From: Rhodospirillales bacterium
Lineage (GTDB): Bacteria; Pseudomonadota; Alphaproteobacteria; Rhodospirillales; Casp-alpha2
Assembly (NCBI GenBank): GCA_018664265.1
Contig: JABJOR010000556.1
Coordinates: 1 to 19,678, forward strand
Direction: 5' to 3'
DNA length: 19,678 bases
Below the pieces are notes generated by a model, which was not told the origin of the DNA, did no database searches, and saw only the letters and a list, made by a program, of their open reading frames with translations. Within the stretch, counting starts at the first letter, position 1. Every line of letters starts with the position of its first letter. A program made the translations under genes and the position numbers. This document shows positions 2-15,748 of this stretch, in pieces.

Positions 2-952
2 AGCTGGACAGGAGCCCGCCCTGTGAGTGGTGGCTCCTTAATGGTTTTAAGCGGATTATGGCTATTAGGGCGTGTAGTAAACTGGTTTTCTGCCTTACTT
101 CCTGGTGTGCTTGTTGCTTCTGTAGATGTCATTTTTTTCCCTGTACTGGTCGCATTGGTGATCAGGGCACTGGTTGCAGGATGGTCTGTCCGCAATTTTA
201 TTTTCCTGCCTGTTATGGCGGGGTTATGCGTTGCAAACGTCTTAATACATTTGGAATGGTTGGGAGTAACAGAATCGACAGCTCAAATCGGCCAACGTTT
301 GGCAATTGATCTGGTGATTTTGCTGATAACCATTCTGGGAGGGCGTGTGATACCTGCTTTTACTACAAATGCCTTGCGTAAGAAGGGTGATGAAAAGCTT
401 CCATTGCAGTCTGTAGCGTTGACGAAACTTGCGTTGCTAAGCGTCGTGGCAATGACTGTGGCAGATCTTGTAGCTCCACAGAGTCAATTAGCGGGAATGT
501 TGGCCGCAACTGCGGCTCTGGTGAATTTCATCCGTATGTCTTCCTGGAGGTTACACAGAATACTAGATCAGCCGATCGTGTGGGTTTTGTTTATGGGGTT
601 TGGGTTCATCATTCTTGGGCTTGCCGTTCAATCTATTTCTATTCTTGGGGGCGCTATAGAGCGAAATGTAGCTGACCACTTGTTAATGATTGGCGGAGCA
701 GGGGGCATGACAGTTGCCGTGATGTCCCGTGCCGCTCTTGGGCATACAGGGCGCGTATTACATGCACCATGGCCAATTATTGGAACATATGTGTTAATTG
801 GCATTTCGGCGCTGATACGAGCTTCAGCACCAGTGTTTTTTATGGATCACTATATAATGTTGATTTCGGTAGCCGGAAGTTTATGGGCACTAGCCTTCGT
901 TTTGTTTTCCTGGGTGTTTTGGCCTATTTTGACAACCCCAAGACCTAGATAA
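2..952 (+). CDS. nnrS: NnrS family heme/copper membrane protein, 5' end outside window
   Basis: This is a polytopic inner-membrane protein of the NnrS family, which is linked to tolerance of nitric oxide and is usually found beside NO or denitrification genes. The frame is open to the left edge, and the codons before the first possible start (GTG at 23) read SWTGARPVSGG, which fits the family's internal 'NWTG-P-P-G' region. The protein therefore begins upstream and GTG23 is not its start. About 316 residues are visible of roughly 400 expected, forming some eight or nine hydrophobic segments, with 'DVIFFPVLVALVIRAL' typical of the family. The stop lies 24 bases from the stop of the convergent Crp/Fnr gene at 977. 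Placement beside a NO-reductase-like operon supports the assignment. The exact biochemical role of NnrS is not settled. Confidence 0.9.
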   Translation, partial: SWTGARPVSGGSLMVLSGLWLLGRVVNWFSALLPGVLVASVDVIFFPVLVALVIRALVAGWSVRNFIFLPVMAGLCVANVLIHLEWLGVTESTAQIGQRLAIDLVILLITILGGRVIPAFTTNALRKKGDEKLPLQSVALTKLALLSVVAMTVADLVAPQSQLAGMLAATAALVNFIRMSSWRLHRILDQPIVWVLFMGFGFIILGLAVQSISILGGAIERNVADHLLMIGGAGGMTVAVMSRAALGHTGRVLHAPWPIIGTYVLIGISALIRASAPVFFMDHYIMLISVAGSLWALAFVLFSWVFWPILTTPRPR

Positions 953-976: not shown

Positions 977-1684
977 TTACCCAATTTTCGCAAAATCTTT
1001 GAGATCGGCCTCTCCAGAGCAATATCGCTCCAGCAAGGCGACATCAGAGATAATCACACGCTCGCGTTCAGTCTTAATGCCATACTTCCGAAGCCTTGAG
1101 AGTATCCTTGAAAGGCTTTCAGGCTGTATACCCAGGCGCCCTGAAATAACCGTTTTATCATAGGGCAGGGCAATAACGGCTGCGCCTTCTCTGACAGTGC
1201 ATCGTCTTAACAAAAACTGGCAAACACGTTGGCTTGCAGTTTGAGTTTTCAGACTTTCAATTTCGCCGACAAGAAGGTGCATTCGCCGTGACAGGGATGA
1301 AAGCATGGAGAGGCTAACTTCCGGGCGTTCTTTTAAATAATTAATGAAAGGAGCTGTTCTGATAGGCAATATTCTTGCGTTTTCAATAACTTCTGCGTTG
1401 GCAGGATAGTCACCGCCAATAAAGGCCATTGCTTCAACGATTGTATCACCGCGTGAAAAAACGCCAATTATGGCTTCATTTCCTTCCAGGGTTTCGCGGG
1501 AAATTTTCACCCAACCATCGAATATGAAATAAAAGTATTCAACAGGGTCATCCTGCATGAATAAGCTATACCCCTTAGGCATGTCTCTAGGAGAGGCATC
1601 CCGCAGGAGCTTTTCAGCATCTTTATCTGACAGTCCACTAAACAGGGCATGCTCTTTAATTAGGCGGTATTCGTCTTGGTCCAT
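977..1684 (-). CDS. Crp/Fnr family regulator, Dnr/NnrR-like
   Basis: A 235-residue transcription factor with an N-terminal cyclic-nucleotide-binding-fold sensor (about residues 14-130), a dimer helix (about 130-150) and a C-terminal Crp-type winged helix (about 155-225). The recognition helix has Glu189, Ser192 and Arg193, the E-x-x-S-R pattern that in FNR and Dnr reads TTGAT half-sites. The N-terminal cysteine cluster of FNR is absent, so an oxygen-labile 4Fe-4S cluster is unlikely. A heme-type NO sensor such as Dnr or NnrR fits better, although this is inferred from context. It lies 80 bases downstream of the hemerythrin gene in the same direction, so it may be read through from the NO-reductase operon or have its own promoter. 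I found no perfect TTGAT-N4-ATCAA site near it. Confidence 0.88.
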   Translation of the reverse strand: MDQDEYRLIKEHALFSGLSDKDAEKLLRDASPRDMPKGYSLFMQDDPVEYFYFIFDGWVKISRETLEGNEAIIGVFSRGDTIVEAMAFIGGDYPANAEVIENARILPIRTAPFINYLKERPEVSLSMLSSLSRRMHLLVGEIESLKTQTASQRVCQFLLRRCTVREGAAVIALPYDKTVISGRLGIQPESLSRILSRLRKYGIKTERERVIISDVALLERYCSGEADLKDFAKIG

Positions 1685-1764: not shown

Positions 1765-2172
1765 CTATTTGTGCGTCATTCTATGAAGCTTGGCATCTTT
1801 TGTGCTGAAATGTCCAAGAAACCAGTTGTTTAGTTTAACGATATAAACATCAGGAGAATCACTGAATTCTCCAGCTTCATAATCGTCCATAATATCCCTT
1901 ATATCATCCAATAAGTTCTCATGGTCTTCTTTATGGTCATGATAATCTTCATACTTCATTTTCCGCATAATGGTTTCTTCAAGAGCAAAGTGTGCAGAAA
2001 CATGCGCGAATACCTCACCCAAAGATTCTGTAATTTGATCTGAACTGGCTTTCTCATTCATCATTTCGCAAGCCCCATTAACCAGTTTAATTAATTCCTG
2101 GTGCTCAAAATCAACTGAAGGAATGCCAGTTGCGAAAGCATCTTGCCATTCAATGTGTGCCGAAGTGTTCAT
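1765..2172 (-). CDS. Bacteriohemerythrin (non-heme di-iron O2/NO binding protein)
   Basis: A 135-residue single-domain hemerythrin. All di-iron ligands of the family can be placed: His24, His61 and Glu65 (H-x3-E), His80 and His84 (H-x3-H), His121 and Asp126 (H-x4-D). Proteins of this type bind O2 reversibly and also NO, and they serve as carriers, buffers or sensors. There is no signal peptide, so it is cytoplasmic. A good ribosome binding site (AAAGGATC) precedes the ATG. It starts 27 bases after the exported unknown protein and belongs to the same minus-strand run as the NO-reductase-like genes, which suggests delivery or scavenging of NO or O2 as its role here. Confidence 0.92.
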   Translation of the reverse strand: MNTSAHIEWQDAFATGIPSVDFEHQELIKLVNGACEMMNEKASSDQITESLGEVFAHVSAHFALEETIMRKMKYEDYHDHKEDHENLLDDIRDIMDDYEAGEFSDSPDVYIVKLNNWFLGHFSTKDAKLHRMTHK

Positions 2173-2199
2173 GCTGATCCTTTTGTTTTCTGCATGTTA

Positions 2200-2703
2200 T
2201 TATTCAAAGATAAAACCGTCACCGGATCTCGTAAAGTCTATTGCTAGACTTTGGCCAGGAAGAAAATTAATCTGTTTTTCAGATATGTAGTCAAAACCTT
2301 CTTCGCGAACTGTATCTTTTAAGTAGGCGGTAATTGTGTGATTTCCTGAAGGAATTACAATTCGTTGGTATGTTTTTGACGGGCCGTCACTATGCAGTCC
2401 TGTGGGTTGGAGATCGTCTTCGTAAAGAACCTTGCCGTCCATGGACAGTTTAACAGATACAGGCAAGCGCTCCCGAGAGCAAACTTCCGGTTTGCGCATA
2501 TTTGGCGCAAGTTCCATTAATTCATCTTGTGACAGCTTACGACAACCGCCTTTAGATTTTGCACTGTGAGCAAAACTGAACTTGATCAAAGATTGACCTT
2601 CTGGAATGCGAGCATAATCAGGGCCTGCTGCAAAACTAGCCAAAAACCATGCAAAACCTACATAAACGACGCCTTGGGCAATATATTGCATTATTTGCTT
2701 CAT
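2200..2703 (-). CDS. Exported or membrane-anchored protein of unknown function in the NOR operon
   Basis: A 167-residue protein that I cannot assign to a named family. Residues about 8-27 are hydrophobic (signal anchor or signal peptide). The rest is polar and beta-rich, with two cysteines (Cys54, Cys75) that could form a disulfide in the periplasm. A stretch near residues 124-134 ('IPSGNHTITAY') resembles the edge strand of PEGA or Ig-like sandwiches. Its ATG overlaps the stop of the cytochrome b-ferredoxin fusion by four bases (ATGA), so the two are very probably translated together. An extra periplasmic subunit or an assembly factor for the fusion or the reductase is plausible, but this is inference from position. 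The NorSY clusters of ammonia oxidisers are reported to carry an extra unknown ORF, and whether this is its homologue is untested. Confidence 0.75.
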   Translation of the reverse strand: MKQIMQYIAQGVVYVGFAWFLASFAAGPDYARIPEGQSLIKFSFAHSAKSKGGCRKLSQDELMELAPNMRKPEVCSRERLPVSVKLSMDGKVLYEDDLQPTGLHSDGPSKTYQRIVIPSGNHTITAYLKDTVREEGFDYISEKQINFLPGQSLAIDFTRSGDGFIFE

Positions 2704-4262
2704 TGTCCTGCCTCATCTTTTTCCGTTGGGTTTTCATTGCCGTAAGGCCCAAGCAGTTCAATATCACCCTTGAATTTTGTTATGTTTTTTTCAAAGGAAC
2801 GACCATCAGTCGCAGATGCCCAGCTTCGTAAAATTCGATCTCGTGGCACACGTTTTCTCAATCGCGGATCACGATTTCCGTCCAATCTTTCTTCGAGCCA
2901 TATTTGCCCTAATCGATAATGGCATTCTCCACGACGGCAACCTGTAACAACCACACCGTCAGTCATTTTTTTACTGAGAACATAATCGATAAAGGATGGA
3001 GGCAGCATGCCAGCACACGGCATGCTAATCGTTGCTATGTCTTTACCACGGAATTTATCTACTTTGAGGGCCTTGTCACATCCAAAGACCATTAATCGTG
3101 CGGGGCCTTCAAGTTTGGCAGTAGCAGTATCAACCTTTTCACGCATGGTAGCCAGAGACAGGTCTGGAAGATCAATGCCCGGGACCAAGTCGCCTGCCCG
3201 ACGAAACGGTGTTGCTGTTGGGCAAGACCCGACACAAATGCCGCAGGCCACACAAACATCTGGATCAACAACAGCTTCATGTTCAAAGGCTGCACCATCA
3301 GAACGTTTAACCATTGCTATGGCATTAAATGGGCAATCTACAGCACATCTTGTACAGCCGTTGCAATTGCCAAGATCAACAATTGCTGGTGTAACTTTCT
3401 TTGCAGGTGGCAACCATGGGGTAATTAGCAACAAGAAGCTGCCAATAAACAACCCACCCCAGACCATTCCTGGGCCAAATATGTCTGCCAGTGGAAATAC
3501 CCATAAATAGAACCAATCCAGTGCGACAGGGGAAGGCGCTACGGAGAGATCTGCAACGCCTTGACTGGTGGCCGGCACAACGAGACTGAGCACCATCAAC
3601 ATAATGAATGTGCCTATAGCAAGGCCGCGTGGTGGATTGATTCTGGAATGAGCTACTCTTTGCAGATGTATCCACATAACAAAAAGTAAAAATAGTGGCA
3701 CAAAAATATGGGTGAAGGTCATCAGAGTGAAGAAACGACCATCAATATGGCTGGGTGCCAGGAAGTTTCGGGCAATAGGTTCGCCGAAAATCGGAATCCA
3801 ATCTAATAATTCTGTTGTGCTTTCACCGACATATTGGGCAAGTACATCCCATACAAGCCAGTAACCGGTCATGCCTGCTATGATAATAAGCCAGATCATT
3901 GGGATGCCAGTTATCCAGGAAAACCATCTGCCTCCTCGATATCGGTCAAATGCAAATTCACGAATGATATGCAGCACCATCATGGCAACCATGGCGTCAG
4001 ATGCATAGCGATGTAGAGAGCGCATAATGCCACCAAGCCACCACTGTTCGTTGGTCAGGTATTCAACAGACAGAAAGGCTGCGGGGATTCCGGTGTCGAA
4101 GAATATATAGACGTAGATGCCACTGATTGAGACGATCCAGAAGTAGTAATACCCAAGAGCCCCCAAACAATACGTTGGATTCCACTTTTGTCCGAAAATA
4201 TGATCGAACCATCCTTCTATCCACATTAACCCATAGCGGAGCGGTGATCTTAAGCTTTCCAC
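2700..4262 (-). CDS. Cytochrome b / two-[4Fe-4S] ferredoxin / MvhD-like domain fusion
   Basis: A 520-residue membrane redox protein with three modules. Residues 1-285 resemble the cytochrome b of bc1/b6f complexes: His84/His98 and His185/His199, each pair 14 apart, would hold two b hemes, and 'DWFYLW' near 249-254 sits where the quinol-site P-[ED]-W-Y motif is expected. Residues 300-347 hold two 4Fe-4S motifs (Cys300, 303, 306, 310; Cys337, 340, 343, 347). Residues about 388-485 resemble the MvhD/FlpD delta subunit, with Cys395, Cys416 and the 'GCRRGECHYR' motif (Cys442, Cys447). MvhD-type domains pass electrons to HdrA-like flavoproteins in other organisms. The start is GTG at 4262, with Met13 as an alternative. 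It is followed with a four-base overlap by the unknown exported protein and preceded by SCO. It may exchange electrons between quinone and a soluble partner. No Rieske or cytochrome c1 gene is present. Confidence 0.88.
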   Translation of the reverse strand: MESLRSPLRYGLMWIEGWFDHIFGQKWNPTYCLGALGYYYFWIVSISGIYVYIFFDTGIPAAFLSVEYLTNEQWWLGGIMRSLHRYASDAMVAMMVLHIIREFAFDRYRGGRWFSWITGIPMIWLIIIAGMTGYWLVWDVLAQYVGESTTELLDWIPIFGEPIARNFLAPSHIDGRFFTLMTFTHIFVPLFLLFVMWIHLQRVAHSRINPPRGLAIGTFIMLMVLSLVVPATSQGVADLSVAPSPVALDWFYLWVFPLADIFGPGMVWGGLFIGSFLLLITPWLPPAKKVTPAIVDLGNCNGCTRCAVDCPFNAIAMVKRSDGAAFEHEAVVDPDVCVACGICVGSCPTATPFRRAGDLVPGIDLPDLSLATMREKVDTATAKLEGPARLMVFGCDKALKVDKFRGKDIATISMPCAGMLPPSFIDYVLSKKMTDGVVVTGCRRGECHYRLGQIWLEERLDGNRDPRLRKRVPRDRILRSWASATDGRSFEKNITKFKGDIELLGPYGNENPTEKDEAGQ

Positions 4263-4316
4263 AATTATTCTTTCATTCTTTAAGGTAGTTTAGTTCAAAT
4301 GGTGCTGATGATAGAT

Positions 4317-5177
4317 TTAAGATTGGCCTTTAGATTTTCTAGATTGTCGCCGATAAGCTATGAGCATTCGAACCAAAAGAAAACCTGTAAGGCCCATTGA
4401 CATCAAACCAGCAGATCCTGCAATGAAAATTGACATATCAAAGCGGTAACGTCCAGAGTTTGGATCATAGATTGTGCAAAATAAACGAATTTGATTAACA
4501 ATACCGTCAATACTTGTCGCGTTACCCTTTCGCCCAAAAAGAAGATCTTTGAGTGGCTCCATTAATAATGGCGGGTCAAATGTTTCACCATAGACATGTC
4601 GGTATATCAGCCCTGCAGAATCAACAAGGGTCGTTCTGGTCATATGATCAAACCCTTTTGGTGAATTATAAAATAGAAAGCCTGAATTTTCTGCAAATCG
4701 GTCTATCGTGGCATGATCGGCCGATAAAAAAGTCCAATTCTCATTGGTCAGTCCATGACTGGATTTGTAGTCGTTCATTCGTGTTGGGGTATCATTACGA
4801 TCATCAAAACCGATGGTGATGACATTATAGGAATCCTCGCCAAAAACGTCATTGGCTGAATCAACAGCGTCGGAAATTGAGTCGGAAACCATTGGGCAGA
4901 CATCTTTGCAGCTCGTATAAATCAAGCTGATGATGAGAGGCTTACCCAGAAAAGAATCTAATTGAATAACTTTATTATTTGAATCAACAAATGAGTATCG
5001 CCCGATTTCGCGTCCAACGGATGCTTCGCTTAGGGCAAGGGACTTGCGTTCATCAAAATCCAAGGGCTTTTCGCCATGGGAATAGGAATAAGATGGTATA
5101 CCGAGAATCAAAACAAAGGCGCTCATAAATATGATGCGCCTTGCTAAGTAGATTGAATTTTTTGTCAATTTGACCAT
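4317..5177 (-). CDS. senC: SCO1/SenC family copper chaperone
   Basis: A 286-residue thioredoxin-fold protein that delivers copper to the CuA centre of heme-copper enzymes. The copper ligands are present: Cys90 and Cys94 (C-K-D-V-C-P) and His178 (in 'FDHMTRTTLVD'). An N-terminal hydrophobic segment (about 13-32) acts as anchor or signal. A second hydrophobic segment near the C terminus (about 249-275), followed by a basic tail, is an addition to the usual single-anchor SCO layout. It lies just downstream of the CuA subunit II and heme-copper subunit I genes, from which a strong inverted repeat separates it. The combination SCO plus subunits I and II matches the norSY-senC order reported in nitrosomonads. 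Confidence 0.9.
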   Translation of the reverse strand: MVKLTKNSIYLARRIIFMSAFVLILGIPSYSYSHGEKPLDFDERKSLALSEASVGREIGRYSFVDSNNKVIQLDSFLGKPLIISLIYTSCKDVCPMVSDSISDAVDSANDVFGEDSYNVITIGFDDRNDTPTRMNDYKSSHGLTNENWTFLSADHATIDRFAENSGFLFYNSPKGFDHMTRTTLVDSAGLIYRHVYGETFDPPLLMEPLKDLLFGRKGNATSIDGIVNQIRLFCTIYDPNSGRYRFDMSIFIAGSAGLMSMGLTGFLLVRMLIAYRRQSRKSKGQS

Positions 5178-5202
5178 TTTTATCTCTGTCTTGAAAAGAA
5201 AG

Positions 5203-5251
5203 TGGAGGACACCCTTTTTTTAGTATTGGGAGGGAAATCAGGTGTCCTCCA
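5203..5251 (-). repeat. Perfect 11-bp inverted repeat between subunit I and SCO genes
   Basis: TGGAGGACACC (5203-5213) and GGTGTCCTCCA (5241-5251) are perfect complements separated by 27 bases, filling the gap between two minus-strand genes. In the transcript a stem of 11 pairs would form, followed by a moderately U-rich stretch (CUUUCUUUU). It could be a partial terminator or attenuator that lowers SCO and downstream expression, or an RNA-processing or stabilising hairpin after the structural genes. The long loop makes it a poor classical terminator. Confidence 0.5.
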
Positions 5252-5270
5252 GGTCAAGTTCTTTTCAGTG

Positions 5271-6962
5271 TTAGCTCAGTGGCCAGATCTCTGAGAGATA
5301 CTTCCAGTTAATGAAGTAGTAGAGAACGAAGGCACCGAAGAAGAGTGATACCAAGACAATCGTACCAGGAATGTGCAGAGATTCGGCACTGCCATGAGCA
5401 GCAACGGTTCCACCACCTTGATGTACGATTGGATTGTTTTTGACTTCCTCTTCGCCACGTTTTTTGCCAAAGAATACTGAGGCAACGATAACGATGACGA
5501 ACATACCACCACCAATTGTTGCGATAATGCCTGAAATACCATTCAGGGCCATAATCATAAATACAGCAGGTGGATAATCAAAGGTCATTGTAGCATCACT
5601 AAATGCCATGTCCCAGTGACGACGTGATACACCTAGTGTGCCAGCGGCCATCATGAAGACGGACAGACCAGTGATACCCAAACCAAACATGTAAGGCTGC
5701 CACTGTGCCATCTTCTTGAACATGATTTCCTTGCGGAAGATCAAAGGAACAACGAGGTAGGATACTGCCATGAAGGCAAGTGTCGTACCTGCAGCAACTG
5801 TGCCATGGAAGTGGCCAGGTACATACAATGTGTTGTGAATGATCAAGTTGATTTGCTCAGTACCCATAATAACACCAGTGATACCACCAAGAACACCGAA
5901 CAAGACAACACTGAGGAACATGCCTGAGAAGGCCGGGTTACCCCAAGGAGCATTGCGCAGCCATCCAAACGTGCCTTGCGTGAAGCCGTTTTTGCGTTGA
6001 GCAACTTCAATAGCACCTGGAACACTCATGCCGTGGATTAAAGAACCAAGAACAGCAAGGAACAGAGCGTAAGAAGTGTTTACAACTTTCCATTCAGAAC
6101 TGAGACCAGGATCAACCAGTAAGTGGTGAGCTGAAGCTAGAAGCAGGAAGCAAATGTAGAGGAAGAAAGCTGCACGGCTTACTTTTTCTGACATCGGCTT
6201 GGCGCCAAGGACAATCGCAGCAATTGCGTACCAACAGGAAACCTGTGCAGCAACATTAATCTGCTGTGAAGAGTGACCGAAGCCCCACCAAACAACACGG
6301 TAGGTTAGTGTATCTATTTCACCAATCAGTCCGATTGACCACAACCATGTTGGAACCAGAATAACTGCACCGGATGCAATGGTGTAAACAGCGATAATAG
6401 CAGCCGTTACAGCACCAAAGGTAACCAATGGAACCGAACCTTCATAGGTACGTTCTTTTTTGGCGATAACCAGCGTGCCAAAGAAAACCATCACAGCAAC
6501 CAGAGCACCAACAGCAAACAGGATCAAACCAAGGTAGAATTTATGGTCTGCCTTCATTGGTACGTAGGATGTGAACATAACGCTTGAATCGCCCTGAAGA
6601 ACAGCAACGTTCGCCATCAAAGCGCCGACCAGCATCAAAATGAATGCTAACCATGCAACTTTTGGCATTGCTAATCGACAATTCAAAAGAATTGCTGAGG
6701 CAAAATAAAGAATGGCAATTTCAAAAAAGATAATCCAGAAAATCAGGATATCTGCGCCGTGAGCCGTAAGGGCCAGGTAGAACAGGTCGGCTGGCAGTAA
6801 GTGAACTGCTTGCCATCTTGTGAGGGCAACCAGGAGACCAAAAAGGCCACCAAGCGCCAAAAATACCACAGCCACAACGGCATTGGCTTTAATTAGTGAT
6901 TCTGCCGGACCATGGACCTTCAGGCCGGTATCCGGGCAGGTGCGGAATAAAGACATACTCAT
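5271..6962 (-). CDS. norY: Heme-copper subunit I, probable NO reductase (NorY-like, sNOR type)
   Basis: A 563-residue integral membrane protein of the heme-copper oxidoreductase superfamily with about 12-14 helices. All six metal-binding histidines can be placed: His68 (low-spin heme), His230, His279 and His280 (CuB or equivalent metal), His384 and His386 (hemes, in 'GHFHG'). In O2-reducing A- and B-family oxidases His230 begins H-P-x-V-Y, with Tyr cross-linked to His. Here it reads H-S-S-Q-Q, so Gln234 replaces that Tyr. Loss of this Tyr is the hallmark of the NO reductase branches. With a CuA subunit II upstream, SenC downstream and NnrS, hemerythrin and a Dnr-like regulator nearby, I call it a NorSY-type NO reductase. 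An automatic annotation would probably read 'cytochrome c oxidase subunit I'. AGGAG precedes the ATG by seven bases. Confidence 0.85.
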   Translation of the reverse strand: MSMSLFRTCPDTGLKVHGPAESLIKANAVVAVVFLALGGLFGLLVALTRWQAVHLLPADLFYLALTAHGADILIFWIIFFEIAILYFASAILLNCRLAMPKVAWLAFILMLVGALMANVAVLQGDSSVMFTSYVPMKADHKFYLGLILFAVGALVAVMVFFGTLVIAKKERTYEGSVPLVTFGAVTAAIIAVYTIASGAVILVPTWLWSIGLIGEIDTLTYRVVWWGFGHSSQQINVAAQVSCWYAIAAIVLGAKPMSEKVSRAAFFLYICFLLLASAHHLLVDPGLSSEWKVVNTSYALFLAVLGSLIHGMSVPGAIEVAQRKNGFTQGTFGWLRNAPWGNPAFSGMFLSVVLFGVLGGITGVIMGTEQINLIIHNTLYVPGHFHGTVAAGTTLAFMAVSYLVVPLIFRKEIMFKKMAQWQPYMFGLGITGLSVFMMAAGTLGVSRRHWDMAFSDATMTFDYPPAVFMIMALNGISGIIATIGGGMFVIVIVASVFFGKKRGEEEVKNNPIVHQGGGTVAAHGSAESLHIPGTIVLVSLFFGAFVLYYFINWKYLSEIWPLS

Positions 6963-6977
6963 TTTTATTTCTCCTGC

Positions 6978-7517
6978 CTATTCTACGATGATCATTTTGC
7001 CGAGCATCGTATGATGCCCGATACCGCAAAATTCATTACAAATGATACCAAAATCACCTGTTTGTTCAGGCTTGATTGTGAGAACCATTTCGTAGTTCGG
7101 GTGAATTTGCAGATTGATGTTTGTTGGCTGCAATGAGAAACCATGCAACCAATCGAGAGAGGACAGGTGAAGCCTGTATTCTTTACCTTTTTCAAGTTCA
7201 AGAATTGGCCACCATTCCCACAAACGTGCGAGCATATAAACGTCGCTACCTGCGGGTGGATGAACCACCGGAATGCCGCTCTGTTCATCTTCACGAACGG
7301 TATATTGCGCTGCTGCGGCTTCTACCTTTTCTGCATAGGTATCCGGATTGACCCGGTATGCTTCATTGGAAAGGTTCTGCTCGCCTGTCATGTGCCAATA
7401 TACCATCATGCCAGTCATAAATAGGCCCCATAAGAAGCCTACTGTAATCCATATAGTCTCGATGCCGTGTAGAGGTTCTTTCCACCACAACCGATTTTCA
7501 GGAGGTGTAATAGCCAT
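6978..7517 (-). CDS. norS: Subunit II with CuA site, partner of the NOR-like subunit I
   Basis: A 179-residue COX2-like protein with one N-terminal transmembrane helix (about residues 21-42) and a periplasmic cupredoxin domain. It is shorter than a typical A-family subunit II, which has two helices, and more like the B-family (ba3-type) form. The binuclear CuA ligands are all visible: a His in 'DWLHGF', then C-N-E-F-C-G-I-G-H-H-T-M giving Cys, Glu, Cys, His and Met at canonical spacing. Electrons should therefore come from a periplasmic cytochrome c or cupredoxin. None is encoded in this window. The ribosome binding site AAGGAG lies eight bases before the ATG. Only 15 bases separate its stop from the subunit I start, so they are one operon. 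Confidence 0.88.
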   Translation of the reverse strand: MAITPPENRLWWKEPLHGIETIWITVGFLWGLFMTGMMVYWHMTGEQNLSNEAYRVNPDTYAEKVEAAAAQYTVREDEQSGIPVVHPPAGSDVYMLARLWEWWPILELEKGKEYRLHLSSLDWLHGFSLQPTNINLQIHPNYEMVLTIKPEQTGDFGIICNEFCGIGHHTMLGKMIIVE

Positions 7518-7536
7518 TAGATTTTCTCCTTAAATC

Positions 7537-7701
7537 TCAGTGTGCCAGAGGAATGTTAGCAACTTCCATGACGCCCCATATCGTGTAAATCACGGATGGT
7601 ACAGCGACGCCGATGAAAAGAAGCAGGAATGTATTATCAAGCAGACTCTGCATACCAGGAATCGGCTCTTTATCTTTATCAGTGTTATCAGTATCGGACA
7701 T
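7537..7701 (-). CDS. 54-residue single-helix protein, possible small subunit (IIa-like)
   Basis: A short gene at the head of the NOR-like operon. The ATG at 7701 is preceded by a strong GGGAGGGA site, whereas an upstream in-frame ATG at 7752 has none, so the shorter product is preferred. Residues 1-18 are acidic and polar, about 22-46 form one hydrophobic helix, and the tail is short. Its stop is 19 bases before subunit II. Small one-helix proteins beside subunit II are known in B-family oxidases (subunit IIa of the ba3 enzyme), which makes an assembly or structural subunit likely. No sequence identity to that subunit can be claimed from reading alone. Confidence 0.72.
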   Translation of the reverse strand: MSDTDNTDKDKEPIPGMQSLLDNTFLLLFIGVAVPSVIYTIWGVMEVANIPLAH

Positions 7702-7974
7702 ATAAATATCCCTCCCATATATTTGCACATAACCGAAACGGCCAAAGTGCACGTTAGCTAGGTTGCACGCACACTTCCCGCACGTACATATACCTCAGTA
7801 TATAGCTCGACTACTCCACGCCTTGACTTTGGTTAGGTCTTGGTGGAATCGAAACTATCGTTAAGTTGTTGACTTCCCTATATTGATACCTGAGCATCCC
7901 CTAGGTCTGTTACTTTGGAAAAACTATCCAGGGCACACACAGACACAACCGCATGACAGCATATTAGCAGGCTT
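7702..7974. promoter_or_regulatory. Divergent intergenic region between the NOR operon and the DMT operon
   Basis: This 273-base gap must hold the promoter of the minus-strand NOR-like operon and that of the plus-strand transporter row. Visible elements are two TTGACTT copies (7823-7829 and 7869-7875) and an isolated TTGAT (7883-7887), a half-site for an FNR/Dnr-type protein. None has a convincing -10 partner or a full TTGAT-N4-ATCAA palindrome, so no specific promoter is claimed. Confidence 0.4.
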
Positions 7975-9003
7975 ATGGCAATGCATGAAATAGAAGAAAA
8001 TAATACAGGACAAGGCGTTAACGCTGATTCTGACAGCATTATCACTGCTGATTCAAATATATATTCCGAGGCTGTGGGTGTGGTATCAGCAAGTTTTTTT
8101 AAACGATTTCGCTCATGGATTGTTTTGTTATCATTAGGACTTGTTTGGGGGATGACGTTTTCACTTGCCAAAATAGCTGCGGAAGGGGGCGGACATCCAA
8201 TTGGTATTGCCTATTGGCAATCGTTGTTAGGGGCCATTGTACTTGTGTCATTTAGTATACTTAAACGGCGTCCAATTCCTATAAATCGCAAGTACCTGCT
8301 TTTTTATACTCTATGTGGAATTTTGGGCTCTGCTATCCCCAATACTCTGTTTTTCTATGCAGCATCCAAAATTTCAGCGGGTGTCTTGTCGATTACTGTT
8401 GCCACAGTGCCTTTGATGACTTTTGCCGCTGCTGCCATGTTGCGTGTCGAGAAATTGGCATGGGGTCGTGCATTGGGTGTGATATTTGGAATGACTTCAA
8501 TTGTCTTGCTGGTTGGTCCAGAGGCAAGTTTGCCTGACCCGGATTCAGGCATTTGGGTCATGGCTGGCGTTCTGGCTGCCGTTTGCTACACGATTGAGAA
8601 TATGTTGATTGCCATAAGAATGCCTGAAGGAGTGGACGCTTTTGCTATTGCTGGTGGAATGTTCACTGCGGCAACGCTCATCATGACACCATTTATGTTT
8701 GTTGATGGGGTTTTTGTACCGCTTTTATGGCCTTGGGGACCGATAGAGTTTTCCATATTAGGCATGGCTTTTTTCAGTACCTTCGCTTATGGAATATTCG
8801 TATATTTGATTATAGAGGCTGGCCCCGTCTTCGCCAGTCAGACTGCATACGTTGTTACATTGTCAGGCGTTTTTTGGGGCATGATCATCTTTGGAGAACA
8901 ACATTCATTCTGGATATGGATATCTCTTGCTATCATGATGATTGCTCTTGCGTTAGTTACACCGAGAAAATCAAAAAAATCTATTAAACTTGGAGCAGAG
9001 TAA
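7975..9003 (+). CDS. EamA/DMT superfamily permease
   Basis: A 342-residue transporter of the drug/metabolite (EamA) superfamily. After a polar N-terminal tail of about 45 residues there are ten hydrophobic segments arranged as two EamA repeats (about 48-181 and 192-330), with 'LGLVWGMTFSLAKIA' typical of the first helix. Such proteins export or import small amphipathic metabolites, and the substrate cannot be read from sequence. The tail is longer than usual for the family, so a later start is possible although none has a better ribosome site. The stop at 9003 lies one base before the ATG of the serine hydrolase, which indicates translational coupling and a shared pathway. Confidence 0.85.
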   Translation: MAMHEIEENNTGQGVNADSDSIITADSNIYSEAVGVVSASFFKRFRSWIVLLSLGLVWGMTFSLAKIAAEGGGHPIGIAYWQSLLGAIVLVSFSILKRRPIPINRKYLLFYTLCGILGSAIPNTLFFYAASKISAGVLSITVATVPLMTFAAAAMLRVEKLAWGRALGVIFGMTSIVLLVGPEASLPDPDSGIWVMAGVLAAVCYTIENMLIAIRMPEGVDAFAIAGGMFTAATLIMTPFMFVDGVFVPLLWPWGPIEFSILGMAFFSTFAYGIFVYLIIEAGPVFASQTAYVVTLSGVFWGMIIFGEQHSFWIWISLAIMMIALALVTPRKSKKSIKLGAE

Positions 9004-9004
9004 T

Positions 9005-10201
9005 ATGCCAGTAAAGAAACTTATGACCGGGTTCCCGCCTTCTCCGGAAAATCAGGTAACTCTGGATAACTGGCGACAGCCACCATTTAACAAGTGGGGC
9101 TTTCAGCATGTCAGTGAAATTACCCAAACTGCCCCTATATATAATGATACGAATAATATTCGTATCCTTAAAAAGGGCTCCTCTGATTTAGTTGATCTAC
9201 CCTTTAATCATGGAGACCAGAAAATTACTGTTTCCCAAATGATTGAAAAGACAGATGCAGATGGCATGATTGTTCTTCACAAGGGACGAATCGTGCTGGA
9301 AGAATATCGCAATAATATGACAGACCGGAGCAGGCATATCCTGTTTTCTGTAACCAAGTCAGTAACAGCCCTCGTGGCAGGTGTTCTTGTCGGGCGCGGG
9401 AAACTTGACCCGGATACGCAAATTATAAAATATATCCCGGAAATCGCAGATACGGCCTTTGGTGATGCATGTGTTCGAAATGTTTTGGATATGGCTGTTG
9501 GACTTGCTTTTGATGAAGATTATACAGCAACGGAAGGTCCTATTGTTCAATATCGCGAATCTGCTGGTTGGAATTCACGCACATCAACACCGCCTGATAT
9601 GCATTTGCGGGATTTTTTGCAAACTATGACAGAACGCAATGGTGCTCATGGGGTGCGCTTTAGTTATATGTCACCAATTACAGATTTATTGGGCTGGATC
9701 CTTGAACGGGCAAGTGGCCAACGTTATTGCGACCTTGTAAGCGAGACCCTGTGGCAGCCTATGGGAGCCGGGTATGATGCCTATATGAGTATTGATAATG
9801 TCGGTGCACCTAGAACTGCAGGTGGATTTTGCGCAACTTTGCGCGATTTGGCCCTTGTCGGGCAACTCATATGTGATGATGGGAAACGTGGAGATAAGCA
9901 GATTGTTCCAGCTGAATGGATAGCGGACATCAGGAATAATGGAAGCCGTGAGCAATGGCTGGCTGGAGATTTTGCGGAAGACTACACGGATTGGTCCATG
10001 CGATACCGGAGTAAATGGTATGTAACAGGAGAGGGAAATGTGCCTTGTTTCGGTGTTGGCATCCATGGCCAGTTTGTTCATGCAAATCCGGCAAATGGCG
10101 TGGTTGTTGCACAGTTTTCATCACAGCCTGATGCTGTAGATGGAGATAAGGAATTGATGGTTTTACGTGCCTGTGATGCAATTGGAAAAGCTTTAAATTA
10201 G
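9005..10201 (+). CDS. Beta-lactamase-fold serine hydrolase, 6-aminohexanoate-dimer hydrolase (NylB)-like
   Basis: A 398-residue serine hydrolase of the class C beta-lactamase / penicillin-binding fold. The nucleophile motif S-V-T-K (Ser115, Lys118) and the Tyr221-x-Ser223 motif (in 'FSYMSPITDLLGW') match NylB and esterase EstB-like members, and 'GIHGQ' near the C terminus takes the place of the K-T-G box as in NylB. No signal peptide is seen, so it is probably cytoplasmic. Members cleave amides or esters, and the native substrate is unknown. The start chosen is ATG9005 with GGAG nine bases upstream, inside the end of the DMT permease gene; an in-frame TTG at 8990 is less likely. It sits between the permease and the YtoQ gene, nine bases from the next start. 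Confidence 0.87.
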   Translation: MPVKKLMTGFPPSPENQVTLDNWRQPPFNKWGFQHVSEITQTAPIYNDTNNIRILKKGSSDLVDLPFNHGDQKITVSQMIEKTDADGMIVLHKGRIVLEEYRNNMTDRSRHILFSVTKSVTALVAGVLVGRGKLDPDTQIIKYIPEIADTAFGDACVRNVLDMAVGLAFDEDYTATEGPIVQYRESAGWNSRTSTPPDMHLRDFLQTMTERNGAHGVRFSYMSPITDLLGWILERASGQRYCDLVSETLWQPMGAGYDAYMSIDNVGAPRTAGGFCATLRDLALVGQLICDDGKRGDKQIVPAEWIADIRNNGSREQWLAGDFAEDYTDWSMRYRSKWYVTGEGNVPCFGVGIHGQFVHANPANGVVVAQFSSQPDAVDGDKELMVLRACDAIGKALN

Positions 10202-10210
10202 GAGATTGAG

Positions 10211-10675
10211 GTGGGTTCAAAAATTTGGAAGGTTTATTTGTCAGGAGAAATTCATTCTGACTGGCGTGAGCAAATAATGGATGGCGTTAAGGCAGCGTCT
10301 TTGCCCGTGGAATTGAGCAGCCCGATTACTGTTCATGAGGATTCGGATGATTGTGGTGTTGCGATTTTTGGTGCTGAGTCGGATAAATTTTGGCATGACA
10401 GAAAAGGAGCGCAGCTAAATTCCATACGAACTGGAACCTTGTTGCAAGAGGCCGATGTTGTCGTGGTTCGGTTTGGTGAAAAATTCAAGCAATGGAACGC
10501 TGCTTTTGATGCGGGATTTGCCTGTGCTCTTGGAAAACCGATCATTGTGCTTCACCCACCGGAACATGATCACCCTCTTAAAGAAGTTGACGCTGCAGCT
10601 TGTGCTGTTGCTCGTGAACCTGGACAGGTTGTCCAAGCATTGGGCTATATTATCAATGGAACAATGCCCGGATAA
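10211..10675 (+). CDS. ytoQ: YtoQ family protein (deoxyribosyltransferase-like fold)
   Basis: A 154-residue protein that closely follows the YtoQ family known from Bacillus: the N-terminal 'YLSGEIHSDWREQI', the central 'ADVVVVRFGEKFKQWNAAFD' and the later 'GKPIIVLH' and 'HPLKEVDAAA' stretches. The fold is related to nucleoside 2-deoxyribosyltransferases, but the reaction catalysed by YtoQ is not established. It uses a GTG start with GGAG six bases upstream, immediately after the serine hydrolase. It is cytoplasmic with no membrane segment. Co-location with an amide hydrolase and a gamma-glutamylcyclotransferase suggests a role with a small nitrogenous metabolite, which is inference only. Confidence 0.88.
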   Translation: MGSKIWKVYLSGEIHSDWREQIMDGVKAASLPVELSSPITVHEDSDDCGVAIFGAESDKFWHDRKGAQLNSIRTGTLLQEADVVVVRFGEKFKQWNAAFDAGFACALGKPIIVLHPPEHDHPLKEVDAAACAVAREPGQVVQALGYIINGTMPG

Positions 10676-10695
10676 TCGGGCTGGATTAGTATTTC

Positions 10696-11376
10696 ATGCG
10701 TCTGACACCGGAGTTACTGGAGTTCATTCATCAGGATGTTATTGATCCTGGGCCCATTCCTGATGTGGAGCACTTTAGCGATGAAGAATATGCCCATGTT
10801 GTTGACGAGCTAGAGAAGCAATTACCTTCCAGTGAACCTGTTCGGGTCTTTGCTTATGGATCATTGATCTGGAACCCGGAATATGAAGTCAAACGATCCA
10901 GAGAGGGGAAGGTGTTTGGCTGGCACAGGGCGTTTTGCATGCATATCGAACGATTTCGCGGTTCCCGTGATGTTCCGGGATTGATGATGGGATTGGAACG
11001 TGGAGGTTCATGTCGAGGCGTGATTCATGAAATTTCCATGTCAAAGCGACGTCAATCATTGGACTCAATTGTGCGTCGAGAAATGATAACCCAACCTTGT
11101 ACGTACGAGCCTCGTTGGTTGCCTGTTCACAGTGGTGATCAGGTGATTATGGCGTTGGCTATGATATTTGATCGTAAAGGTGTTTTTTATAGGGGTGGAC
11201 TTGATTTGGATGTTGTTGCCGAACGTATATCCAAGGCTGTTGGGCATCTTGGTAGTAATGCTGAATACTTGATGAATACAAATCGCCACCTTGAAGAAAT
11301 AGGCGTCACTGATCGGAACTTGTGCAAACTCGAACACAAGGTTGCAACCTTGATTCATGTTCGACAACGCCAATAA
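10696..11376 (+). CDS. ChaC-like gamma-glutamylcyclotransferase
   Basis: A 226-residue protein of the gamma-glutamylcyclotransferase ChaC family, which releases 5-oxoproline from glutathione or other gamma-glutamyl compounds. The substrate loop 'VFAYGSLIWNP' lies at residues 51-61, 'GWHRAFC' at 75-81, and the likely catalytic Glu129 is in 'VRREM'. About 45 residues precede the core domain. It follows YtoQ by 20 bases in the same direction and is the last gene of the row. Its stop is 18 bases from the convergent LuxR-type gene, with no terminator visible between them. The substrate could be glutathione or a gamma-glutamyl amine handled by this cluster. Confidence 0.9.
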   Translation: MRLTPELLEFIHQDVIDPGPIPDVEHFSDEEYAHVVDELEKQLPSSEPVRVFAYGSLIWNPEYEVKRSREGKVFGWHRAFCMHIERFRGSRDVPGLMMGLERGGSCRGVIHEISMSKRRQSLDSIVRREMITQPCTYEPRWLPVHSGDQVIMALAMIFDRKGVFYRGGLDLDVVAERISKAVGHLGSNAEYLMNTNRHLEEIGVTDRNLCKLEHKVATLIHVRQRQ

Positions 11377-11394
11377 AAATGTTCAGCTTAATAG

Positions 11395-12282
11395 TCAGTG
11401 ATTTATTTGACTTATATCGTCGGGTTGAAAAGCTATCGTTGGAGATTTACTCGATAGATGAGAAATAAACAGTGAGAACAGCTCAGATTGTGATGAGATG
11501 TCGAGTTTTGCGTAAATGTTCTTGCGGTGTATTTTAACGGTGCCTGTTGAAATCCCGAAGTGACGGCCTATGGATTCTGATGAATGCCCACGTAAGACCA
11601 TACCAACAACCTCTCTCTCTCGCGGTGTCAGCATCGCCCTACCAAAATTTTCAAAAGCTGTGGCAATATGCAAATCGAAAGATGCAAGTTGATTATCAGT
11701 TTCGATGACTTCATCACGATCTTGCCCCAGGTTACACCAGTGCAGTGCTGTATTTGCATAAACGATAGACTCAATACGGCGTAACTTATTTATATCACGT
11801 TCGCTGAAGCAAGGACTGCCACCTCCACGCATAAGTGATATTGACAGTCCTATGTTATCTGGCAGTGCGATGATAAAAGAAATTTCTTCGGATAGCCCAG
11901 TCCGCCGATAGTAGGAACGATAGTATTCAGAATGATAAAATCGATCTGGTGCTATATCACGTAAACGATAAAGGCCTGATTGTGCACGTTCATGACAGGC
12001 CAAATAAAACGGATCGAGCAGATAAGGCCCTTCTTGATAATCGCTCACCATGACAATGCGCTGGCGGGGTGTGAAAGTATCGTAAAGACAAATCGGTCGT
12101 TCCTGGCCATGAAAAGCAAAAAATACCGAATAATCAAAGGGTACTACACACTTAAGTGTCTCAACCAATACCTCTGGAAACTTAGGTGTGCCCTGGGCAA
12201 TTATCAGTGTGGCAATTTGGTCATGCCAAGCTTTGGTGTCCAGTTTTAAAGACTCTCGATTATCTTTTGACATTTGTCTCAT
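11395..12282 (-). CDS. LuxR-type HTH regulator divergent from the polyamine-type transporter
   Basis: A 295-residue regulator with a GAF-like N-terminal sensor (about residues 20-180; 'GPYLLDPFYLACHE' and 'FYHSEYYRSYYRRTGL' are recurrent in this group) and a C-terminal LuxR helix-turn-helix (about 218-275, 'LTPREREVVGMVLRGHSS' then 'GTVKIHRKNIYAKL'). It does not look like a classical acyl-homoserine-lactone receptor, and members of this group often sit beside amine transport and catabolism genes. The start at 12282 follows AAGGGA; Met4 (12273) is an alternative. Head-to-head placement with the ABC transporter makes it the likely local regulator. The ligand is unknown. Confidence 0.85.
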   Translation of the reverse strand: MRQMSKDNRESLKLDTKAWHDQIATLIIAQGTPKFPEVLVETLKCVVPFDYSVFFAFHGQERPICLYDTFTPRQRIVMVSDYQEGPYLLDPFYLACHERAQSGLYRLRDIAPDRFYHSEYYRSYYRRTGLSEEISFIIALPDNIGLSISLMRGGGSPCFSERDINKLRRIESIVYANTALHWCNLGQDRDEVIETDNQLASFDLHIATAFENFGRAMLTPREREVVGMVLRGHSSESIGRHFGISTGTVKIHRKNIYAKLDISSQSELFSLFISHLSSKSPTIAFQPDDISQINH

Positions 12283-12427: not shown

Positions 12428-13576
12428 ATGGAGCATAATCCCTCTCAATTAGCGCAGGCCAGTAAGGTCGATGTTCCTGATATTCAATTTGTCGGTGTGA
12501 CAAAACGATTTGGTAACGTTGCTGCCGTAGATAACGTTGATCTGAGTGTAGAGAGTGGTGCGTTCTTTAGTTTTCTTGGTCCATCAGGTTGCGGAAAAAC
12601 AACGTCATTACGCATGATTGCCGGATTTGAACAACCTACCGAGGGTAACGTTTATATTAATGGTCAATCCGTTGTTGGCATTCCTCCGCACAAACGCCAT
12701 GTTAATATGGTATTTCAACAATATGCTTTGTTTCCGCATATGGATGTGGCTGATAATATTGGTTATGGCCTTCGACAACGTGCCCCCCGCCCATCCAAAT
12801 CAGAAATTGCAAAGCGTGTGGATGAAACTCTGGAGCTGGTGCGTCTTGAAGGCTATGGCAATCGTCGGGTTTGGGAAATGTCAGGCGGACAGCAGCAGCG
12901 TGTAGCGCTTGCACGTGCACTTATCAATCATCCAACTGTATTATTGCTTGATGAGCCACTGGCAGCGCTTGATCGCAAGTTGCGCCGTGAGATGCAAATT
13001 GAACTTCAAACCTTGCAACGTGATGTCGGTATTACATTTGTTCTGGTCACCCATGATCAGGAAGAAGCACTCTCCATGAGTGACCAGATATGCATTATGA
13101 ATGAAGGCCGGATTGTCCAAACGGGCAGCCCGCGAGACTTATACGATGATCCGGTAAGTCGCTATGTGGCGGACTTTGTTGGTAAATCTAATTTCTTTGA
13201 AGGTGATGTCGTCGATGTAAATGCAGGCTCATATTCCATAAAATCTGCTACTGGCCAAGTATTCTCCGGCTTTGGTTCGAAAGGTGCTCCTGCACTTGTC
13301 AAAGGTGGGAAAGCCAGCATCGCAGTGCGCCCAGAATTATTATCAATTGGTTCGGCTGACGGTGGCAATATTGATGCTGATGTCAAAATTCTAGGTCAAA
13401 TAAAAAACCGAATTTTCTTGGGTGAGCACACAGAATATCTTGTTGAGTGTGAGGGCCTGGGTGAAGTTTTGGTGCTTTCGCCCAAACATATTGAAAATAT
13501 TCGTGGGACCTTTGAGCCTGGTGCCAGTGTTACACTTGGTTGGATGAATGATATTGCCCTGGCGCTAGGGGACTAA
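12428..13576 (+). CDS. potA: ABC transporter ATPase, spermidine/putrescine (PotA) type
   Basis: A 382-residue ABC ATPase energising uptake of polyamines or related amines. Walker A G-P-S-G-C-G-K-T is at 51-58, the Q-loop near Gln97, the signature S-G-G-Q-Q from 152, Walker B with Asp175-Glu176 ('LLLDEPLAALD') and the switch His209. The C-terminal third (about 290-380) is the TOBE_2 regulatory domain of the PotA/MalK group. GGTGAG lies eight bases before the ATG. It is the first gene of an A-D-B-C transporter operon and faces the LuxR-type regulator. The substrate assignment rests on the whole cassette rather than on this protein. Confidence 0.93.
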   Translation: MEHNPSQLAQASKVDVPDIQFVGVTKRFGNVAAVDNVDLSVESGAFFSFLGPSGCGKTTSLRMIAGFEQPTEGNVYINGQSVVGIPPHKRHVNMVFQQYALFPHMDVADNIGYGLRQRAPRPSKSEIAKRVDETLELVRLEGYGNRRVWEMSGGQQQRVALARALINHPTVLLLDEPLAALDRKLRREMQIELQTLQRDVGITFVLVTHDQEEALSMSDQICIMNEGRIVQTGSPRDLYDDPVSRYVADFVGKSNFFEGDVVDVNAGSYSIKSATGQVFSGFGSKGAPALVKGGKASIAVRPELLSIGSADGGNIDADVKILGQIKNRIFLGEHTEYLVECEGLGEVLVLSPKHIENIRGTFEPGASVTLGWMNDIALALGD

Positions 13577-13672
13577 TTCGGAAGAGAAACTGGTCTTAGT
13601 CGTAAATCCGTCGGCTACAGCCCAAATTAACAAAGCAATTACGGATAACAACAACATGGAGGCTAGAGAGAA

Positions 13673-14836
13673 ATGAGTAAAAGTTATAAAGACAATATGC
13701 CAATTACGGCAAAGAAGTTTATGGAGGAATTCCGCCGCTACGAAAAAGGTTCCGTATCGCGTCGTCATTTCATGGGTGTGACCGGTTTAGGAACAGCCGC
13801 GGCGGTTCTAGGTTCTGCGATGCCGTCAATGATGCCGAAGAGTGCAAAAGCGGGTAGTTTAGGTGATCGATTGATCTTTTCCACGTGGCCGAATTATCAC
13901 AACCCGGTCAATGTTGAAAATTTCACGAATGATACGGGCGTAAACATTCAGATCAATGCATTTGGTTCTAATGAAGAAATGTTGGCGAAATTGCAAGCTG
14001 GTGCTACTGGTTGGGATGTGTTTGTGCCAACCAATTATACCATTTCCAACTATGTTGATCTCGATTTGATTCAAGAGCTCGATTTATCCCGTATTCCAAA
14101 TCATGATCCTAGTAGTCAGAATCCTATGTTTGCCGATCCAGCAACGGTGAATGGTAAAGTTTATGCTGTTCTTAAAAACTGGGGTACCACTGGCATTGTT
14201 TACAATTCCAAGAACCTCAAAAATGGCCCTACATCCTGGAAAGACTTCTTTGATCTTACCATGGGCGAAGGTTCAGGTCATACAATCGTGCATGATTATC
14301 AGCTGACAACCATCGGTGCTGCATTGTGCGCCAATGGACATTCATTCAATTCTGTTGATGCGGGTGAATTGGAAATGGCAGAAAAACTGCTAATTGAATC
14401 TAAACCACACCTGTTTGCTATTACCTCTGATTATCAGCCAGGTATGCGCAGTGGTGATGCCTGGATGTCTATTTGCTGGAATGGTGATGGCCTGCAGCTC
14501 AATAAAGATCTGCCAGAGATGAAATACACCCTCGCGTCAGATGGTGGCGAAATTTGGTCTGATTTCTATTGCATTCCAAAAGATGCTCCACACGTTGATG
14601 CGGCATATGCCTTCATTAACTATCTGTTGGACCCAAAAGTTCAGGTTCTTGAATTCGAGTCACACGGTTATGCAACTGGTGATACTCGGGTTGAAGCTTT
14701 GCTGCCAGCCGAAACAGCTGACAATGAAATCCTGTTCCCGGCAGCTAAGCTGATGAATGGACTGGAATTCGGTGCAGCTAACACATTGACTGATCCGATC
14801 CGGGCTGAAGTGATTGCTCGCTTCAAATCTGCTTAA
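13673..14836 (+). CDS. potD: Polyamine-type ABC substrate-binding protein with Tat signal
   Basis: A 387-residue periplasmic binding protein of the PotD/PotF family. An extended N-terminal region is followed by a twin-arginine motif S-R-R-H-F-M (residues 29-34), a hydrophobic stretch (about 36-52) and 'AKA' at 58-60, a probable signal peptidase site. It is therefore expected to be exported folded by Tat, unlike the Sec-exported enterobacterial PotD. The mature part has the family's 'TWPNYHNPVNVENF', 'SNEEMLAKLQAG', 'WDVFVPTNYT' and 'NWGTTGIVYN' stretches. The ligand may be putrescine, spermidine or another cationic compound. GGAGG lies upstream in a 96-base gap after the ATPase gene. Confidence 0.9.
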   Translation: MSKSYKDNMPITAKKFMEEFRRYEKGSVSRRHFMGVTGLGTAAAVLGSAMPSMMPKSAKAGSLGDRLIFSTWPNYHNPVNVENFTNDTGVNIQINAFGSNEEMLAKLQAGATGWDVFVPTNYTISNYVDLDLIQELDLSRIPNHDPSSQNPMFADPATVNGKVYAVLKNWGTTGIVYNSKNLKNGPTSWKDFFDLTMGEGSGHTIVHDYQLTTIGAALCANGHSFNSVDAGELEMAEKLLIESKPHLFAITSDYQPGMRSGDAWMSICWNGDGLQLNKDLPEMKYTLASDGGEIWSDFYCIPKDAPHVDAAYAFINYLLDPKVQVLEFESHGYATGDTRVEALLPAETADNEILFPAAKLMNGLEFGAANTLTDPIRAEVIARFKSA

Positions 14837-14857
14837 CCGTTTCTCCCTGGAAAGAAA

Positions 14858-15730: not shown

Positions 15731-15748
15731 TTGGAGAAGCAAGACGTT

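Follow-up and report, generated by a model that had tools for sequence, protein, structure and literature searches.

A cytochrome b-ferredoxin-MvhD fusion protein encoded with eNOR-type nitric oxide reductase genes in a Rhodospirillales bacterium and other Pseudomonadota

We examined a 19,678-nucleotide stretch of DNA from a Rhodospirillales bacterium (GCA_018664265.1, contig JABJOR010000556.1; "the window" means this whole stretch). Within an operon for a nitric oxide (NO) reductase, its minus strand encodes a protein, here called FUS, that joins a cytochrome b, a two-cluster ferredoxin and an MvhD/FlpD domain. FUS is a real, widespread redox fusion of the cytochrome-b quinone enzyme kind, linked to NO reductases of the eNOR type, and is strongly conserved and apparently uncharacterised. 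The gene and its parts are:

2700..4262, minus strand: FUS, cytochrome b - ferredoxin with two [4Fe-4S] clusters - MvhD/FlpD; 520 amino acids, GTG start (Pfam and alignment)
3663..4178, minus strand: FUS residues 29-200, cytochrome b/b6 domain (Pfam, alignment to cytochrome b6)
3414..3629, minus strand: FUS residues 212-283, helices E and F with the p-side ef loop (alignment, predicted topology)
3207..3377, minus strand: FUS residues 296-352, two-cluster ferredoxin with eight invariant Cys (Pfam, alignment)
2748..3098, minus strand: FUS residues 389-505, MvhD/FlpD domain with invariant Cys 395, 416, 442 and 447 (Pfam, PDB matches, alignment)

An earlier note on this DNA had read three modules in one 520-residue chain, and Pfam bears this out with all domains above their curated cut-offs: Cytochrome_B (27-201, E 3.9e-20), Fer4_7 (299-350, E 5.1e-9) and FlpD/MvhD (PF02662; 408-505, E 4.2e-14, 53.1 bits against a cut-off of 22.3). 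The residues it had named are also present, namely two pairs of heme-ligating His (H84/H98 and H185/H199, each H-x13-H in the window's own sequence), two cluster motifs (C300-x2-C-x2-C-x3-C310 and C337-x2-C-x2-C-x3-C347) and the motif GCRRGECHYR. In an alignment of 29 FUS sequences, the window's own among them, 16 ligands are identical in 29/29: the four His and Cys 300, 303, 306, 310, 337, 340, 343, 347, 395, 416, 442 and 447. The last four of these Cys make up the MvhD-type site, which in MvhD/FlpD proteins would hold a [2Fe-2S] cluster; with the two [4Fe-4S] sites this gives three predicted iron-sulfur sites. Topology prediction gives six transmembrane helices (A-F) with two bis-His heme sites, and places the Fe-S part on the cytoplasmic side. 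The cd loop carries the motif GYWLVWD (residues 133-139), and the ef loop has LDWFYLW (248-254) at the place of PEWY, with D249 and W250 the sole invariant residues there; we take this sequence to be PEWY-like. ExtQ matches the helix E-F region at 218-292, and the structural match of the FUS model reaches residue 288, fold matches lying mainly at 13-288 with little on the ferredoxin-MvhD half. Searched alone against PDB sequences, the helix E-F stretch gave no match.

Of the 29 aligned sequences, 27 space the helix D heme ligands as H-x13-H, and the two copies at one locus (L053) space them as H-x14-H. The longer spacing also occurs in five further loci (L098, L100, L102, L110, L115); among 17 further sequences the pattern did not resolve nine, and L109 was a mis-hit. 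The same x13/x14 contrast separates bc1 from b6f.

Across the database, 4944 proteins among 7998 scored candidates match FUS at E<=1e-3. The best 120 listed, which were the ones inspected (the other 4824 were unseen), cover at least 91% of the chain and read as cytochrome b, Fer4 and FlpD domains; with so many homologues, the best of them near full length with all three domains, the fusion is not a product of chance.

The genes around FUS are as follows:

7537..7701, minus strand: conserved 54-amino-acid protein with a single transmembrane helix, directly upstream of subunit II and below the size cut of the open reading frame list
6978..7517, minus strand: eNOR subunit II, CuA cupredoxin, with invariant H125, C160, C164, H168 and M171 (family search, alignment)
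5271..6962, minus strand: eNOR subunit I, heme-copper B family, with Gln234 where the catalytic Tyr would stand (Pfam, alignment)
4317..5177, minus strand: SCO1/SenC copper chaperone (Pfam)
2200..2703, minus strand: hyp167, one transmembrane anchor and a beta-sandwich, predicted periplasmic; directly after FUS with a 4-base overlap
1765..2172, minus strand: bacteriohemerythrin (family searches)
977..1684, minus strand: CRP/FNR-family regulator (family searches)
23..952, plus strand: NnrS-family membrane protein, matching from profile position 77, with the window end near the gene start (Pfam)

The minus-strand order is thus 54-residue protein, subunit II, subunit I, SCO, FUS, hyp167, hemerythrin and CRP/FNR regulator, followed by NnrS on the opposite strand. 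None of the eight window genes scanned with Pfam encodes a Rieske protein or cytochrome c1, in agreement with the earlier description of a cytochrome b lacking these partners. No FNR-type palindromes (TTG-N8-CAA) were found upstream of the operon in 7401-7990.

The structure prediction for hyp167 (one helix and a beta-sandwich) has a pLDDT, the predictor's own confidence measure, of 95.7; its fold search gave no PDB match at E<=1e-3, the best sequence match reaching only E 0.24. Of 37 hyp167 sequences, 35 have both of two Cys and the remaining two have neither, and the alignment holds no conserved metal-ligand set. On these grounds we rejected hyp167 as a substitute for a Rieske protein. A defence-system reading of FUS or hyp167 was likewise dropped, a PADLOC search having given no match for either. 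Among the 26 loci with subunit II, 25 have a counterpart of the 54-residue one-helix protein directly upstream of that gene, the exception (L027) being truncated at a contig end; its position resembles that of the small subunit of ba3 oxidases. It is also recognisable on Thermus and Thermomicrobium plasmids. Elsewhere in the window, at 12428-16564 on the plus strand, lies an apparently unrelated ABC (ATP-binding cassette) transporter read as spermidine/putrescine type (ATPase, binding protein and two permeases).

The reductase had been labelled sNOR, a label that we reject. Subunit I carries the motif H230-S-S-Q-Q234, and Gln234 is present in 17/17 aligned sequences. In the text and Table A4 of PMC8756737, as far as the consulted parts go, Gln at this active-site position denotes eNOR, Asn sNOR and Tyr the O2 reductases; because the diagnostic residue is Gln, not Asn, throughout, the window's subunits I and II are, as read from sequence, eNOR-type. 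Passages of PMC6431628 and PMC8879329 rename as eNOR the alphaproteobacterial "ba3-a1" enzymes that lack this Tyr, and, in the parts consulted, the operons they describe pair such a B-family reductase with SCO, as here; those passages name SCO and not the fusion, although Fig. 5 of PMC6431628 may draw the gene. Further His of subunit I are conserved in 17/17 (H68, H230, H279, H280, H384) or 16/17 (H386), and the CuA ligands of subunit II are invariant in 16/16. Their roles as heme and CuB ligands in subunit I we assume from ba3 numbering. The departure at His386 is a Lys in an eNOR-like subunit I on a Thermus plasmid (L058, 6001-7686), a possible heme-ligand change. Since copper nitrite reductase and cytochrome-d1-type proteins are encoded in the same genome, the organism plausibly makes NO.

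To describe how FUS and eNOR are distributed we used samples of 61 near relatives, 385 genomes of the class and 299 of the phylum, each including the window's own genome. Full or near full-length FUS is encoded in 29 of the 61 near relatives (the G013 copy is split over two contigs); the reductase was not searched in the 32 without the fusion. In the 28 stretches fetched around fusions other than our own, subunit I is present in 26, subunit II in 25, SCO in 27, hyp167 in 28 and hemerythrin in 24 (on the strand of FUS in 17, opposite in 7). L036 and L045, the two without subunit I, lie on short contigs ending inside FUS or SCO. A contig survey with a single query sequence had recovered only 3 loci.

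In the class sample 24 genomes encode FUS, 23 the reductase and 23 both (Fisher p 4e-36, a value that overstates independence because the species are related). The two genes start no more than 4 kb apart on one contig in 22 of the 23 pairs and lie on two contigs in G246; in the single fusion-only genome (G335), the SCO gene beside FUS runs off the contig end (L114). In the phylum sample FUS occurs in 33 genomes, the reductase in 29 and both in 28. Of the five fusion-only genomes, G545, G644 and G694 have SCO or FUS cut by a contig end, the layout differs in G566, and the G559 stretch was not fetched. Distances between FUS and subunit I sequences correlate at 0.883, the highest among 21 gene pairs. 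A plasmid of Defluviimonas carries the run subunit II, subunit I, CyoE, SCO, FUS, hyp167-like protein and hemerythrin. The co-occurrence that the earlier note had suggested scoring is near-complete in the samples searched, and in the Pseudomonadota genomes sampled FUS is almost always present as a near-obligate companion of eNOR.

FUS and hyp167 stay paired even where the reductase genes lie apart; across all 16 further FUS stretches they adjoin in 13, hyp167 being uncalled or the contig ending in the other three. In G496 (L100, L101), one of the phylum genomes whose FUS and reductase genes are separated, the neighbours of the reductase are a heme d1 gene (NirJ) together with genes for siroheme decarboxylase, and those of FUS are NapC-like, molybdopterin and cytochrome/beta-propeller proteins read as cd1-type. 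Tandem double FUS genes occur in five loci (L053 and L105-L108), and both L053 copies (8001-11800) keep all 16 ligands. Beside the tandem at L107 (11490-12869) is a 459-residue protein that shares 22% identity with eNOR subunit I across 454 residues; it has no NCBIfam match at E<=1e-5.

Each part of FUS has known relatives. Like the cytochrome b of bc1 and b6f (PF00033, PF13631) it has two predicted bis-His hemes and the fold, whereas its operon holds no Rieske, c1 or subunit IV gene, and the ferredoxin and MvhD domains follow helix F. Its ferredoxin-MvhD half has the module order of the C-terminal tail of HdrA2 (NF040770; FUS 292-509 against 571-776, E 1.2e-22), and all 29 aligned members match that family; FUS scores 79.8 bits against a cut-off of 1100, shows no listed HdrA flavin domain, and has the tail joined to a membrane cytochrome b. 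The MvhD domain (PF02662, MvhD/VhuD) is 31% identical over 100 residues to a free MvhD of the same genome and matches the PDB chains 5odc_D and 9sw2_D (E 1.1e-12 and 1.9e-11). In FUS, however, it is fused, with no hydrogenase gene adjoining in the window, and a single Cys (395) stands where the free MvhD has C16, C17 and C20. For the cytochrome part, the strongest NCBIfam match is ExtP (E 2.8e-30) of the ExtP/ExtQ b-type cytochromes of selenite/tellurite reduction; it scores 105.7 bits where the cut-off is 290, and its model spans the cytochrome part only; among the 25 families shown of 51 matched, none reaches its cut-off for FUS.

The nearest whole relative found is, by sequence comparison, a two-gene version in Melainabacteria (L054), a cytochrome b-ferredoxin protein (~370-400 residues) and a separate MvhD gene, with the same order of parts and 35% identity in the best segment. 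Instead of eNOR, its neighbours are an oxidase that reads as cbb3-type, together with a Rieske protein and a second cytochrome b. The same locus (1990-9487) also holds cytochromes c, with proteins read as AprAB-like nearby. Database names for FUS homologues cite one half ("cytochrome b N-terminal domain-containing protein" or "hydrogenase iron-sulfur subunit") or join both ("quinol-cytochrome oxidoreductase complex cytochrome b subunit/coenzyme F420-reducing hydrogenase..."), so automatic annotation had already registered the composition. We found no description of the fusion in the literature searched, which was seen in part and did not include the main eNOR characterisation paper. Ammonia oxidisers have a norSY-senC-orf1 arrangement (consulted part of PMC4940428), whose orf1 is a possible relative of FUS.

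Taken together, the architecture and distribution suggest that in Pseudomonadota FUS is probably a membrane redox partner dedicated to eNOR. Its cofactors would line up as a single wire leading from a quinone-type pocket on the p-side through heme bL, heme bH and two 4Fe4S clusters to the MvhD cluster, so that electrons could be exchanged between a redox protein in the cytoplasm and the quinone/eNOR side. A cytoplasmic donor would reduce the MvhD site, electrons would run outward to quinone or to the CuA of eNOR, and this flow would feed NO reduction alongside the bc1 complex, with hyp167 as a periplasmic structural subunit of FUS. The potentials of ferredoxin-type sites are as a rule lower than that of ubiquinone, and it is for this reason that we lean, weakly and tentatively, toward a direction from cytoplasm to membrane. 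Unlikely, though more novel, is a Rieske-less, NO-driven supercomplex in which FUS and eNOR would couple quinol or a cytoplasmic donor across the membrane through the five-site wire, CuA taking the Rieske role and MvhD serving a new, non-Hdr cytoplasmic partner.

Several observations weigh against a dedicated partner feeding electrons outward. Conservation on the p-side gives no clean signal, since only 2 of 24 ab-loop residues are invariant and the n-side bc loop equals the cd loop in mean identity (0.77 each). No obvious cytoplasmic donor is found among the window's operon genes, other genes of the relatives' loci not having been surveyed. The genome has one Rieske match, on the same contig (C88) as a second cytochrome-b match, and the electron donor of eNOR is given as reduced cytochrome c in the consulted part of PMC8879329; bc1 and cytochrome c could hence suffice to supply eNOR. 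One genome of the phylum sample (G499) has the reductase only. Among the 27 phylum genomes with both genes besides our own, 13 pairs lie within 8 kb, 2 at 15-21 kb and 12 on different contigs; by genome content FUS does not occur mostly away from NO reductases, yet 14/27 pairs are unlinked, so that linkage in the phylum is by genome and not always by operon. Finally, eNOR-like subunit I (46.7-47.3% identity) is encoded on 10 Thermus and one Thermomicrobium plasmid records. The 15 records that matched FUS in this search of plasmid records include none of these 11, chromosomes of these genera lying outside the search; the three of the 11 that were inspected have no FUS nearby.

An unlikely but live alternative is that FUS and hyp167 form an assembly factor that keeps copper, or the thiols of SCO and eNOR, reduced in the periplasm during insertion of CuA and CuB, on the model of CcoG, a membrane ferredoxin that acts as a cupric reductase. 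The presence of SCO beside FUS in 27/28 relative loci and of the anchored beta-sandwich protein hyp167 in 28/28 would fit, as would CyoE in the same run in some loci and the pairing of FUS with hyp167, which holds in 13 of the 16 further stretches and extends to loci away from the reductase. Such a reductase would, however, seem to require less than a Qo-like arrangement with two bis-His hemes; hyp167 lacks a conserved metal-ligand set and a listed FixG_C match, and no FixG/CcoG-type family is listed for either protein in Pfam at E<=0.01.

Slightly less probable again, though likewise a live rival, is that FUS oxidises quinol on the p-side and passes electrons inward to an acceptor such as the neighbouring hemerythrin, for cytoplasmic removal of NO or O2, with conservation of energy of the kind achieved by NarI. 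The topology and PEWY-like ef loop suit quinol oxidation, and hemerythrin is encoded in 24/28 relative stretches, 17 on the same strand. It is nevertheless missing from 4 and on the opposite strand in 7, the Thioalkalivibrio locus has no hemerythrin match, and the potentials of ferredoxin-type clusters tend to be too low for this direction.

The earlier note had linked MvhD domains to HdrA-type electron bifurcation and held that the protein could couple quinol to a low-potential or flavin partner, or feed the reductase by a new route; from sequence, which gives neither direction nor partner, either may apply. MvhD proteins elsewhere feed HdrA bifurcation (passages of PMC6019823). At E<=1e-40, with 15 candidates scored per genome, HdrA was matched in 12 of 52 fusion-bearing genomes, ours being one and several matching the profile only partly, and gave no match in the other 40, or in 29 of the 37 near-complete ones. 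The proposal that an HdrA-type partner lies elsewhere in the genome is therefore rejected as a rule, and the MvhD site of FUS would have to meet another protein in the genomes without one. In our genome, contig C300 (L051, 3837-12097) encodes an HdrA-like protein of 1542 residues followed by the free MvhD (151 residues) and by proteins read as MetV-like, MetF-like and fused HdrBC-like. This is apparently a methylene-tetrahydrofolate reductase-Hdr cluster, resembling the Moorella MetFV-HdrABC-MvhD complex as described in passages of PMC9012536.

Very unlikely, in our estimation, is bifurcation of the Qo type, in which one quinol electron would go to eNOR through CuA or hyp167, standing in for the Rieske protein, and the other through the hemes and Fe-S sites to a low-potential acceptor. 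In its favour are the Qo-like motifs of a cytochrome b that has no Rieske partner and is linked to a terminal enzyme of strongly oxidising character, and the role of MvhD elsewhere (PMC6019823, passages seen). Against this, hyp167 has no conserved redox metal site (its Cys are present in 35/37) and HdrA is absent, at the cut-off used, in 40/52. Moreover, with a CuA acceptor near +0.25 V our arithmetic leaves the second electron near -0.13 V, too weak for ferredoxin. Flavin bifurcation by an HdrABC encoded elsewhere is highly improbable despite the HdrA-like and HdrBC-like proteins of our genome and the match of the ferredoxin-MvhD tail to HdrA2 571-776, given that our HdrA has its own MvhD beside it and that most fusion genomes, near-complete ones included, have no match.

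FUS raises the question of how electrons pass across the membrane in NO respiration. According to passages of PMC8756737 and PMC10734462, eNOR is proposed to have a proton channel, and N2O formation by an enzyme so equipped may be energy-conserving. If FUS is its near-obligate partner in Pseudomonadota, feeding by cytochrome c alone would not be the whole picture, and the number of charges moved for each NO could be different. The retention of an MvhD domain in genomes without detected HdrA makes a role outside electron bifurcation directly testable, and a FUS-eNOR supercomplex, if true, would add a new type of cytochrome-b complex to the nitrogen cycle.
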